A DNA stretch of 39,259 bases from contig CAMQVJ010000019.1 in the NCBI GenBank assembly GCA_947038175.1, positions 1 through 39,259 of the forward strand, in the 5' to 3' direction. The position numbers and the translations under genes were made by a program. The notes below the pieces were generated by a model. The model searched no databases and had not been told where the DNA came from. It saw nothing but the letters and a program-made list of their open reading frames with translations. Origin of the DNA: an uncultured Desulfovibrio sp. GTDB taxonomy: Bacteria; Desulfobacterota; Desulfovibrionia; Desulfovibrionales; Desulfovibrionaceae. Below, in pieces: positions 11,061-15,453 of this stretch (its first letter is position 1; every line of letters starts with the position of its first letter).

Positions 11061-11152
11061 GATGTTTTGTGTGGTAATACCCCTAGGCAATAATTTCCAA
11101 GTATGACTCGTTACCACCCAAATTAAGCAACCATTTCCCTGTGAGGTTTCCC

Positions 11153-14032
11153 ATGGCAAGTAGTGTATCCAATTCGATTTCTGGCGGTATCAGTTTTTCT
11201 GGTATTGGTTCTGGAACTGACTTTAGTGCAATGATAGCACAGCTAAAGCAAGTTGAAGAAATTCCAAAAACTCGTATGACCTTATGGAAAGGCGAGTGGG
11301 AATATCGTATCGCCGCTATGGAAGAAGTGCTTAAAGTTATGCAGGAAGCAAAAAGCGCACTTTCTGAGTTTGATAGCATCTCTAAAATGATGGCTGTTTC
11401 TGTAGATAGTTCTAAAGAAGAAGTTGCTACTGGTAGCATAAATATTGGATCCGATCTTACCGAGGGTAACTACTCCATTGATGTTAAACAAATTGCTACA
11501 CCTTCTCTTTTTAGTACGAAGAAAATGTTTCCTGAAAAAACAGCGATTATCAATGATACAGGCGCGGCGCAAGAGTTTTCCTATACATATAAGGGCACAA
11601 CAAGGACAATAGAATGTCCTTCAGGTACGACTCTTGATCAGCTTGTCTTGCGTATTAATAACGATGCAAAAAACCCTGGTGTAAAAGCATCCATGATTAA
11701 AAACGGTTCTGAATATATGTTTCAAATTCAGGGCAATAGCACAGGAGTTGACTCGGAATTGAGCATCTCCTCTGACCTTGTTGGTTTTGATAGTAATCAT
11801 CTTTTTACTGCAAACGATGTTCGTATTAATAATACGGGTTCTGCTCAAGATTTTACTCTTTACAATGGCTCAAAATCTATCACCATGAATATTGGTGCGG
11901 ATATGACGGCTGGTGAGTTTGTCGATGCATTCAATATGAGCACAGAGAACCCTGGGCTAACGGCTTCTCTTGTTCGTGATGGTGCCGATTATGTTGTTCA
12001 ATATAAGGATAAACGAAGTGGGAATATAGTAAACCCTCCTACATCGTCAAAAATTCCTGCGCTTGGCGGCGGGGGAACAGTGACTGGTAAGGATACTATT
12101 ATTAACGAGACTGGTAAGCCTCAAACCTATACCTATACGTATTTAGGCACGAACTACACAGTACCTGTGGCAGATGACCTTACCATGGAACAGCTAGTCA
12201 AAACTATTAATGATGACCCCAATAAAGCAGCAGGGCTTACTGCCGTTCTTGATGAAAATCCTCCTGGTGAGTTTTCCATCAAAATGACAAAAGAAGATGC
12301 CATGATGAATCCTGCTGGTGGCACTGCTCAAGAAGTAAGTTATAAGGTTGACGGGAAAGATCCAGAATATAAAATGACAGTTGAGCCTGGCACAACGATG
12401 AAGGAATACGTCAAACAGTTTAATGCTCATGCAAAGAGTAGTGGTTCCGGTGTTACCGCAGAAATTATGGTTAATGCATCCACTGGCAAAAAAGAAATAT
12501 ATTATAAGAAAAAAGATGGCACAGATGTAACAAGTACTATCACCTCTGCTATGCCTGGTTTCAAAGACGGTAAAGATTTTGTAACGATGAACCATGACGC
12601 TGGACAGGCTTCTAATTTACCAGGTCTTGGTAAAAAAGAGGTTATTTCTGGTAAAGATACCATTGTTAACACAGGTACAGCAAATGAGCCCTATAGCTTT
12701 ACGAATGGTGGTAAGACGTATTCTGCAAGTGTCCCTCCTGGAACAACACTTGATGAGTTTGCTACTCTTTTTAATGCTGATCCAGCTAATGCTGGTGTTA
12801 AAGCAGTCGTTATAAAAGGCGCGTCTGGTTATAGCCTTGGTTTTACTGATGCGGCTGGGGCAGCTATTGTACCTGATTCTGGCAGTGTGACCACTAATAT
12901 GGAAGCCTTGAAATCTGGTGGTGATAACTGGTATGAGCAAAAAGCGCAAGATGCTATTGTTACTGTGAATGGTTGGCCAAAAGAGATCGTTTCCTCTTCT
13001 AATAAGTTAGATGAAGTTATTGATGGAATGACCGTAACAATTAAGAGTGAGGGGAAAACTCAATTGAGTGTTTCTGCTGACTCCAGTAAATTAAAAGAAA
13101 ATATTTTTGAAATTGTTGATATGCTCAACCTTGTTAAGGGAACTATCCTAAAGCTTCAAGAAGTAGATACCGATAAAGCTGTTGGAAGCCCCGATGAAGA
13201 TGTACTTGCATCACAGTTTACTTGGCAAAAGGGTGCAGCTCTTACAGGTAACTATGGTGTGCAAATGCTGCTTTCAGAATTTAGTAGTATTACGAGTAGC
13301 TCGGGTGCTGGTTTTATGGGCATGACAGATGCAGAAGATACTCTTAATGATACTTTTACATCTCTTAGCCAGATTGGTATTTCCACTGTAACAAACCCAG
13401 CAGAAGAAGATTTTGGTCTTCTAAAGATTGATTCTGAGAAATTAGATAAAGCACTTAAAGACGATGCCAATGGTATTGCAGAATTATTTTCAGCAAAACT
13501 AACAGGTGCAACGACTTCTACAGATTTTACCATTGCATCAGCGGGTCTGTTTGCTAAAGCCGGTACCTATGACGTTGACTATACTGTTGATGCAGCGGGA
13601 AGTGTAACGGAAGTTTTTATCAACGGAGCAAAAGCTCAAACTGACCCCATGTATCCTGGACGATTTACCGTTGCGGACTCAAAGAACGACGCTATTGGTC
13701 TTTCTGTGCAGTTTGGTGCAAAGCTCACACCGGGAACACATAAAGGTGATGTGCGAGTAAAGCAAGGGAAAGTCAATGAGATGTGTGCCTTTTTAGGTGA
13801 TGAACTCAAGAGAACAAGCCTTGAGAATGAACCACAAGGAACGCTTCCTACTATCATTTCAAACTACGCTGAAATTAACGAAAATATACAAGCAAAAATT
13901 GATAGAGAAACAAAGAGAATTGGCATCTGGGAAGAAAGACAGAAACTGAAATTCTCTAGACTAGATACTCTTTTAGGGGAGTATAATAGTAAGATGGAAT
14001 CAATGGCGAATATGTTGCCACCAATAAGCTAA
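11153..14032 (+). CDS. fliD: flagellar hook-associated protein 2 (filament cap), enlarged
   Basis: FliD caps the growing flagellar filament and helps flagellin fold. The N-terminus (ISFSGIGSGTDFSAMIAQLKQVEEIPKTRM) and C-terminus (coiled ends, ...IGIWEERQKLKFSRLDTLLGEYNSKM) are canonical. The length of 959 residues far exceeds the usual 450-650. The extra is a central array of five modules starting near residues 130, 221, 312, 389 and 500. Each has an (I/V)N-x-TG strand, a Y/F-rich strand, a PxGTTLDxL segment, a (I/F)N-x-D/A segment and a GVxA strand, like the flagellin IN motif. I choose ATG 11153 (GAGG at 11143-11146) over GTG 11141. Expression is probably from the sigma-54 promoter at 11044. 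Confidence 0.93.
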   Translation: MASSVSNSISGGISFSGIGSGTDFSAMIAQLKQVEEIPKTRMTLWKGEWEYRIAAMEEVLKVMQEAKSALSEFDSISKMMAVSVDSSKEEVATGSINIGSDLTEGNYSIDVKQIATPSLFSTKKMFPEKTAIINDTGAAQEFSYTYKGTTRTIECPSGTTLDQLVLRINNDAKNPGVKASMIKNGSEYMFQIQGNSTGVDSELSISSDLVGFDSNHLFTANDVRINNTGSAQDFTLYNGSKSITMNIGADMTAGEFVDAFNMSTENPGLTASLVRDGADYVVQYKDKRSGNIVNPPTSSKIPALGGGGTVTGKDTIINETGKPQTYTYTYLGTNYTVPVADDLTMEQLVKTINDDPNKAAGLTAVLDENPPGEFSIKMTKEDAMMNPAGGTAQEVSYKVDGKDPEYKMTVEPGTTMKEYVKQFNAHAKSSGSGVTAEIMVNASTGKKEIYYKKKDGTDVTSTITSAMPGFKDGKDFVTMNHDAGQASNLPGLGKKEVISGKDTIVNTGTANEPYSFTNGGKTYSASVPPGTTLDEFATLFNADPANAGVKAVVIKGASGYSLGFTDAAGAAIVPDSGSVTTNMEALKSGGDNWYEQKAQDAIVTVNGWPKEIVSSSNKLDEVIDGMTVTIKSEGKTQLSVSADSSKLKENIFEIVDMLNLVKGTILKLQEVDTDKAVGSPDEDVLASQFTWQKGAALTGNYGVQMLLSEFSSITSSSGAGFMGMTDAEDTLNDTFTSLSQIGISTVTNPAEEDFGLLKIDSEKLDKALKDDANGIAELFSAKLTGATTSTDFTIASAGLFAKAGTYDVDYTVDAAGSVTEVFINGAKAQTDPMYPGRFTVADSKNDAIGLSVQFGAKLTPGTHKGDVRVKQGKVNEMCAFLGDELKRTSLENEPQGTLPTIISNYAEINENIQAKIDRETKRIGIWEERQKLKFSRLDTLLGEYNSKMESMANMLPPIS

Positions 14033-14118: not shown

Positions 14119-15453
14119 ATGAATAATGTTATGCATTCCTATAAACAAGCCCAAGTGAATACAATTGGGCGAGCAGACTTGACTGTCATGCTTTATGATG
14201 GTGCAATACGTTTTTTAGAGCAAGCGCAAGAAAAAATGTTGGCTAAAGATATGCAAGCAAAAGGGAATTTAATCTCAAGAGCTATTGATATCATAAATGA
14301 ATTAGACGCTTCTTTGAATCTTGAAAAAGGTGGTGAAGTAGCAAAAAACCTTCATCAACTTTATTTCTTATCTATGAAAAATTTGCTCATGGCGAACATT
14401 AAATTAGATATGAGTATCCTTAAAAGCGTTCAAAAGAACCTTACCAGCTTACGTGATGCTTTTGCTGAAGCTATGCAAACACCAGAAGCAAAACGGGCGC
14501 TCGCACAAATGGGGCCATTGCCACAAATGGCCGCAGGAAATACAGCTAAGTTGCAAACAGGCGGAAGTATAAATGCACGTGCTGAGCAGGTGAAACAGGT
14601 TGAGACCAGAGTGAAAGCCCTTGAGGCGGCAAAAGCGAAAGTGAGTAATGCTAAAACTCCAGAGGAGGCTCTGCAAGCTAAAGAAGAAATGAGCGCTCTT
14701 ATGGAAGGGGCAACATCGATTTTTGCGCAGAAGGCCGCTCCTACTTCTCTTGTACATAAAGCGTCGCTTGCTTTTGCAAAGGCAAATGGACAAAACCCAC
14801 AAGCAAGCCCTGTAACACAAGTAGTACCGCTTAATGGGGGCATGCATACCTCTTTACAAGGTGCAGTGAGCCAAGAACAAATAATTGCACCTGTGAATAT
14901 GGCAAGAAAAACAGCTCTTTATGGTAATACGCAAGCTGGGATTGTGAGAAGTCCTTCGGTAAACACTCCAGTGAGCCCATTGGCAGCGGTAAACGCTCAA
15001 GTGAGCCCATTGGCGAATGCTTCTCAGGGGAATAACCTCAATAGTTCCGTGCCTGCTCAGCCACTAACAAGTCCTCGTGTAATGCCGCAAGCCGTGCCAG
15101 CGCCGTTATCACAGCCATTATCACCATTATCGGCTCAATCACGAGTAGCAATGCCACAAGCAAACCCTACAGCACAAATAGGTTCTCAAGTTCATGCAAG
15201 TCAGAATCTACAGATGCAAGCACCTGTTCTAAAAGCACAACAGCCTTTAAATAATACAGCAGTTAATACTCTCATGACTAATGGCACATCTTTACAAGTA
15301 CCTAAAGATGTCAATGTCTTAACAAGAGAAGATGTGGCACAAACAAGCCCGCAAAATATTCAAGCGACGAATGTACCTCTATCTCAAGGGCAAAATACTG
15401 GTTCCTTGATGAGTCGCAAAATGGGCTTATACAAAAATATTAATAACGGATAG
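14119..15453 (+). CDS. fliS: flagellin chaperone FliS with long disordered C-terminal extension
   Basis: Residues 1 to about 125 are a normal FliS: SYKQAQVNTIGRADLTVMLYDGAIRFLEQA, then helices through LHQLYFLSMKNLLMANIKLD. FliS binds the flagellin C-terminus in the cytoplasm and prevents early polymerisation. The protein is 444 residues, about three times the usual 120-150. The remaining ~315 residues are rich in Ala, Gln, Pro, Ser and Asn, with a short coiled segment around 160-200 and a 30-bp direct repeat encoding VNxxVSPLA (14959 and 14989). It ends in SRKMGLYKNINNG, resembling an earlier ARKTALYGNTQAG. It follows fliD by 86 nt and is likely cotranscribed. Confidence 0.88.
   Translation: MNNVMHSYKQAQVNTIGRADLTVMLYDGAIRFLEQAQEKMLAKDMQAKGNLISRAIDIINELDASLNLEKGGEVAKNLHQLYFLSMKNLLMANIKLDMSILKSVQKNLTSLRDAFAEAMQTPEAKRALAQMGPLPQMAAGNTAKLQTGGSINARAEQVKQVETRVKALEAAKAKVSNAKTPEEALQAKEEMSALMEGATSIFAQKAAPTSLVHKASLAFAKANGQNPQASPVTQVVPLNGGMHTSLQGAVSQEQIIAPVNMARKTALYGNTQAGIVRSPSVNTPVSPLAAVNAQVSPLANASQGNNLNSSVPAQPLTSPRVMPQAVPAPLSQPLSPLSAQSRVAMPQANPTAQIGSQVHASQNLQMQAPVLKAQQPLNNTAVNTLMTNGTSLQVPKDVNVLTREDVAQTSPQNIQATNVPLSQGQNTGSLMSRKMGLYKNINNG

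Follow-up and report, generated by a model that had tools for sequence, protein, structure and literature searches.

A FliS chaperone with a long C-terminal tail

FliS is a cytoplasmic chaperone and not a secreted substrate, and in an uncultured Desulfovibrio sp. the gene encoding it raises the question of what such a chaperone does with a tail of some 320 residues beyond its folded domain. The gene lies at 14119-15453 on the forward strand of the 39,259-nucleotide stretch of DNA analysed here, which we refer to as the window, and consists of 444 codons uninterrupted by stops. Directly upstream on the same strand is fliD (963 aa, 11141-14032), identified from its ORF translation, Pfam and NCBIfam, which gives fliS a flagellar gene context. 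The translated FliS matches Pfam PF02561 over aa 6-119 with 120.5 bits (cut-off 26.7) and NCBIfam TIGR00208 with 96.5 bits (cut-off 53.75). The four-helix FliS domain occupies aa 1-119 (14119-14475, forward strand), as supported by Pfam, AlphaFold2 and solved FliS structures. The AlphaFold2 model gave pLDDT blocks of 88-98 across aa 21-120, and Foldseek matched the domain model to 5maw, 6gow, 6ch3 and 3iqc with a probability of 1.00. These matches stop at about residue 120-150 of the window protein; chimeras apart, the solved chains are 130-145 aa long, in contrast to the 444 aa of the window FliS with its conserved terminal motif. The fold and the N-terminal tyrosine segment are the same as in FliS of Salmonella and Bacillus (PF02561/TIGR00208), and here the gene adjoins fliD. 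The N-terminal segment, MNNVMHSYKQAQV (14119-14157, forward strand), contains Tyr8 (14140-14142) and aligns with the helix by which characterised FliS proteins dock to FlhA, from which its role is taken (PMC5932034, PMC8527033). Tyr8 is invariant in 48 aligned sequences, and across the family the segment reads MxKAAxAYLxTQV. The open reading frame is thus a genuine FliS flagellin chaperone, in a long-tailed form that is found family-wide.

Beyond the domain the frame continues, as the sequence-only reading had proposed, into a tail of about 320 aa that starts near residue 120-126. Positions 14494-15453 encode aa 126-444, a total of 319 residues containing 14.7% Ala, 10.7% Gln and 8.8% Ser, with Leu, Pro, Asn and Val at 8.5% each. 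The same reading took about 315 residues to be disordered, which is right for about four fifths of them; the exception is a predicted helical hairpin at aa 151-202 (helices 151-176 and 181-202; 14569-14724, forward strand), an insertion specific to the genus that stands at the tail's start. This hairpin was confidently modelled by AlphaFold2 from a 48-sequence alignment (pLDDT blocks 83-96), aligns in congeners and in the genus only, and has no Pfam match at a meaningful score. It is followed by a low-complexity linker (aa 203-429; 14725-15405, forward strand), which is predicted to be mostly unstructured, with a helix only at 211-222; from aa 203 to the C-terminus at 444 the pLDDT is mostly around 45-60. 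The repeats proposed for the tail are present but minor, namely a tandem repeat of a 30-bp unit in 1.9 copies within the linker (14957-15014, forward strand) and a second repeat of a 12-bp unit, also in 1.9 copies.

The tail carries two tyrosine motifs, previously suggested to form a self-similar pair. One is internal, ARKTALYGNTQAG, around Tyr268 (14902-14940, forward strand), and the other, SRKMGLYKNINNG, sits at the very end around Tyr438 (15430-15432, within 15412-15450, forward strand). The two share 6 of 13 positions, a level that 17 of 2000 shuffled versions of the remaining tail reached, so their likeness is slightly above chance. Alignment showed that the terminal motif is conserved, and that the internal one is not in the congeners aligned. 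The terminal motif, defined by alignment, profiles and codon comparison, is the one that we propose as a candidate second docking tag.

The tail is a family trait

We searched 99 relatives with the FliS family and obtained matches in 80 genomes. A search of the genome contigs with the single protein returned no FliS relatives; the alignment-based search returned 80 loci, from which L189 and L195, which run off their contigs, were dropped, and 20 duplicates among the remaining 78 named loci were left uncounted. The Desulfovibrionaceae set contained 59 genomes including that of the window, and the 49 with FliS had one copy each, all of which were read. These proteins range from 167 to 444 aa with a median of 242, the window FliS being the longest, and the tailed form is not unique to it. 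In other families of the order FliS is 121-160 aa (30 loci). Ten further loci from beyond this family in the phylum, mostly picked for their long open frames, have FliS no longer than 172 residues when measured from where the Pfam match begins. The distance from the domain to the terminal tyrosine is 44-320 residues in the 49 family proteins; two further families in the order have a similar end, only about 15-40 residues past the FliS domain.

These comparisons bear on two other accounts of the tail. That two genes have been fused by a frameshift or misassembly is excluded in practice, and nothing was found in its favour: the four other genus members whose FliS was read match that of the window in their continuous architecture and in their end. 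All 49 family proteins are likewise uninterrupted and finish in a similar way, and that end is under codon-level selection (below). A ruler or tape-measure function as in FliK was suggested by a tail that is long, of low complexity and part of a flagellar protein. We consider this very improbable, because aa 121-444 match no Pfam family even at E ≤ 1, including the FliK/hook-length-control domain, because the length varies between 44 and 320 residues within one family and similar ends elsewhere in the order lie close to the domain, and because FliS stays in the cytoplasm. None of the open-access papers listed in our literature searches describes, in its title or the beginning of its abstract, a FliS with a long tail or with a docking motif at its C-terminus.

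A conserved motif at the end of the tail

A tyrosine is present in the last 25 residues of all 49 family FliS proteins, compared with 707 of 3744 interior windows of 25 aa. Lysine or arginine occurs between positions -8 and -5 relative to this tyrosine, again in 49 of 49 and against 28% of interior four-residue windows, and acidic residues account for just 6 of the 738 between -8 and the C-terminus. The residue immediately before the tyrosine is Ala, Leu, Ile, Met or Val in 44 of the 49 proteins, and 35 proteins have a hydrophobic residue or Ala at -3 and 33 have one at -4, in a region where AlphaFold2 predicted no confident helix. Between 3 and 24 residues follow the tyrosine, the outlier being L061, whose tyrosine lies 24 residues from the end. 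The commonest pattern in the family is [KR]-A-A-[SN]-A-Y, and in the window's genus the ends read KKMSLYKN, KKISLYKN, KKMSLYKS or RKMGLYKN.

We compared synonymous and replacement codon differences in four congeneric pairs, out of 14 pairs aligned. Summed over the four, the terminal segment showed 17 synonymous differences against 1 replacement, the linker 69 against 114 and the chaperone domain 84 against 26. The terminal segment of the tail is under strong purifying selection and the linker drifts. In the pairs of the window FliS with L032 and L034, MAFFT misaligned the very end (0/15 and 4/15, respectively); the end was taken from a correct alignment for L032 and from the sequence for L034.

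A short, conserved, tyrosine-containing end could also be a C-terminal degradation tag of Lon or Clp type that holds FliS levels low, as tyrosine-containing C-terminal degrons are known, for example in SulA. We think this improbable: the basic residue 5-8 positions before the tyrosine is as constant as the tyrosine itself, the residues after the tyrosine vary from 3 to 24 in number, and a degron would leave the likeness of the end to the N-terminus, described below, unexplained.

Scored against a strict motif threshold, 36 of the 49 family ends passed, together with 5 of 7 in family f5, where the ends read RYARNAYK and similar, 1 of 10 in f4, and none in f2 (0/8), f3 (0/4) or f6 (0/1). Most f4 ends are tyrosine motifs by eye (KAAAYYAR or similar) that score below the threshold. 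None of 26 FliS from other families of the phylum passed the threshold; 30 of 43 additional named Desulfovibrionales-like loci did, as did 3 of 15 named outgroups. These three (L208, L215 and L217) all belong to the Magnetococcales and are short-tailed FliS proteins whose last residues are exactly GRRLAGGAY-COOH, an end similar to the motif of the Desulfovibrionaceae. It is possible that the terminal tyrosine motif on FliS has had more than one origin. A DNA pattern of the terminal motif was found at 12 places in the window's own genome, five of them on one short contig, compared with 5 places for the reversed control; it says nothing on other carriers.

Likeness of the end to the FliS N-terminus

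The N-terminal segment offers a possible explanation of what is being conserved. Using a profile of this segment, the five columns before the tyrosine in their true order ranked second of 120 column orders on the terminal motif, whereas the columns after the tyrosine (TQVxT) ranked 54 of 120 and did not fit. Matches to AAxAY are inflated because the tails are rich in Ala, and the column-order test controls for this composition. Over whole tails the N-terminal profile placed the terminal tyrosine first in 24 of 49 proteins and among the top three in 33. Conversely, a profile of the terminal motif, built each time without the genus of the protein being scanned, placed the N-terminal tyrosine first in the FliS domain of 35 of 49; with the tyrosine unscored and tyrosine positions only compared, the N-terminal one was best in 42 of 49, with 10.7 expected. 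Five internal motif copies above the strict threshold were found in 5 of the 49 tails, against 0.14 expected from shuffles, the window's own copy at Tyr268 scoring below the threshold. The end of FliS thus resembles the N-terminal segment ([KR]AAxAY), as judged from these profiles, only in the half upstream of the tyrosine.

Free FliS keeps its N-terminal segment buried (PMC5932034), and an end that looks like this segment might fold back on its own chaperone, take the resting place of the N-terminal segment and so control the freeing of the docking helix or of the flagellin groove. We regard this as unlikely. In the two proteins folded by AlphaFold2 the end was not placed against FliS and stayed unstructured, with a pLDDT of about 50 in both; this is weak evidence either way, because the N-terminal segment was also modelled with low confidence (blocks 39-66). 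A linker of 44-320 residues is, moreover, longer than folding back needs.

A candidate second tag for the FlhA gate

In Salmonella FliS docks to the export gate protein FlhA through Ile7, Tyr10 and Val13 of its N-terminal helix (PMC5932034), and the same FlhA cleft is used by Leu102 and Tyr106 of FliT and by Tyr122 of FlgN (PMC5932034, PMC8527033). Free FliS and free FliT conceal their docking motifs, the FliS helix staying hidden until flagellin binds (PMC5932034), whereas FlgN binds FlhA with or without cargo (PMC5932034, PMC8527033). How the order of export is set is described as unknown in PMC5932034.

The genome of the window encodes a flagellar FlhA (TIGR01398), in which the cleft residues P457, A458, F459 and L461 are identical, D456 is replaced by Glu and I440 by Met. 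Glutamate at 456 is present in all 30 other FlhA proteins read from the order, including those from genomes where FliS is tailless, and the search for a change in the gate that matches the tail therefore found none. FlhA Glu640, the partner of FliT Arg98, is Val in this genome as read from the alignment, so that the conserved basic residues of the FliS end have no explanation of the Arg98 type.

We hypothesise that the end of the tail is a second, permanently exposed docking tag for FlhA, carried on a flexible tether, and give this reading a probability of roughly 45%. It is favoured by the reports of FliS, FliT and FlgN docking together with the retention of the cleft in the same genome. The tail would act as a fast-evolving flexible tether with a basic-plus-tyrosine motif at its very end, and in this motif FliS would have an apparent second copy of its N-terminal segment, the part that docks in the hydrophobic FlhA cleft. 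On a free tether the tag would always be exposed, as in FlgN, unlike the N-terminal helix, which is buried until flagellin binds. It may keep FliS at the FlhA ring through avidity across the ring subunits or, as an alternative to avidity, by giving way to the N-terminal helix after flagellin loading; in either case an exposed, FlhA-binding end could speed or gate flagellin export. Against this stands the half of the motif after the tyrosine, which is not like the N-terminus although Val13 contacts FlhA in Salmonella (PMC5932034). The suggestion of the sequence-only reading that the tail binds a second partner such as FlhA or FliW fits FlhA well at the level of sequence, given the selection on the end, its presence throughout the family and its likeness to the N-terminus; for FliW we found no evidence.

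The closest working analogy is FlgN, in which a C-terminal tyrosine region of a chaperone docks in the FlhA cleft without cargo (PMC5932034, PMC8527033), but the FlgN end in this order, PKxxxYSxxGRY...GRL, is another sequence and we claim no homology. In helix 4 of FliT the binding residues, Leu102 and Tyr106, lie upstream of and at the tyrosine, and position -8 is basic, a layout that the tail motif may share (PMC5932034). Its motif, however, lies within a folded FliD chaperone, FliT was not detected in the order and its FlhA partner Glu640 is Val here. HP1076 of Helicobacter is likewise an added element working with FliS (PMC7248283), but it is a separate protein of 171 aa (PMC7248283), and the hairpin in the window FliS has no meaningful Pfam match.

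Separately, FlgN was considered as a possible sharer of the FliS terminal motif and ruled out by its different end, seen in 30 of the matching loci.

The terminal motif might instead bind another export component or client (FliI, FliJ, FliH, FliD, FlgM or FliW), for example if FliS serves FliD where FliT is missing. The fliD gene is directly upstream of fliS, and a search of 99 relatives for FliT-family proteins found none, with a model that is insensitive, matching only 2 of 14 controls. FlgN and FliT also bind FliI and FliJ, which FliS does not according to PMC8527033, and the tail could supply this binding. Yet those families of the order that have a tailless FliS likewise yielded no FliT, so its absence does not track the tail, and the motif is like the FlhA-docking segment and unlike any known FliI or FliJ motif. 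We would give binding to such a partner a minor share of the probability, though a larger one than folding back on FliS. As a replaced partner FliT was set aside, since it was found in none of the order and is hence uninformative. The genes 3' of fliS vary among genomes and, by eye at 19 loci, contained no partner candidate.

Returning to docking at FlhA, it is quite possible, though somewhat less likely than not, that FliS of the Desulfovibrionaceae acts as a bivalent or multivalent chaperone, combining a cargo-gated N-terminal helix with an always-exposed tethered copy and sometimes with further internal copies. If so, FliS could already occupy the FlhA ring ahead of flagellin loading; this would violate the rule that only cargo-bound FliS reaches FlhA, and would alter the way in which export order is set. 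A whole family of FliS proteins with an apparent second, freely exposed docking motif would then be a natural experiment on FliS gating.

Further observations

Besides the flagellar FlhA, the genome of the window encodes an SctV-type export gate at G000:C1:59349-61364 (L140; TIGR01399, 859.9 bits), which probably belongs to a separate injectisome-type secretion system. Other kinds of FliS ending were also seen. Gastranaerophilales-like FliS (L199, L201, L202, L205, L206, L207 and L209) have an acidic stretch and, after it, a terminus of GEYI type with another conserved terminal tyrosine. FliS from other families of the phylum (L110, L111, L115, L121, L125, L130 and L135) often ends in VTI, VRI, LTV or LRI, a short hydrophobic pattern, and L261 and L265, from two other families, share an AYxxGFxCxG end. 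In the FliD encoded upstream of fliS, about 400 residues separate the Flagellin_IN match from the FliD C-terminal domain, and this inter-domain region contains repeated units resembling IxNxTG, seen by eye.
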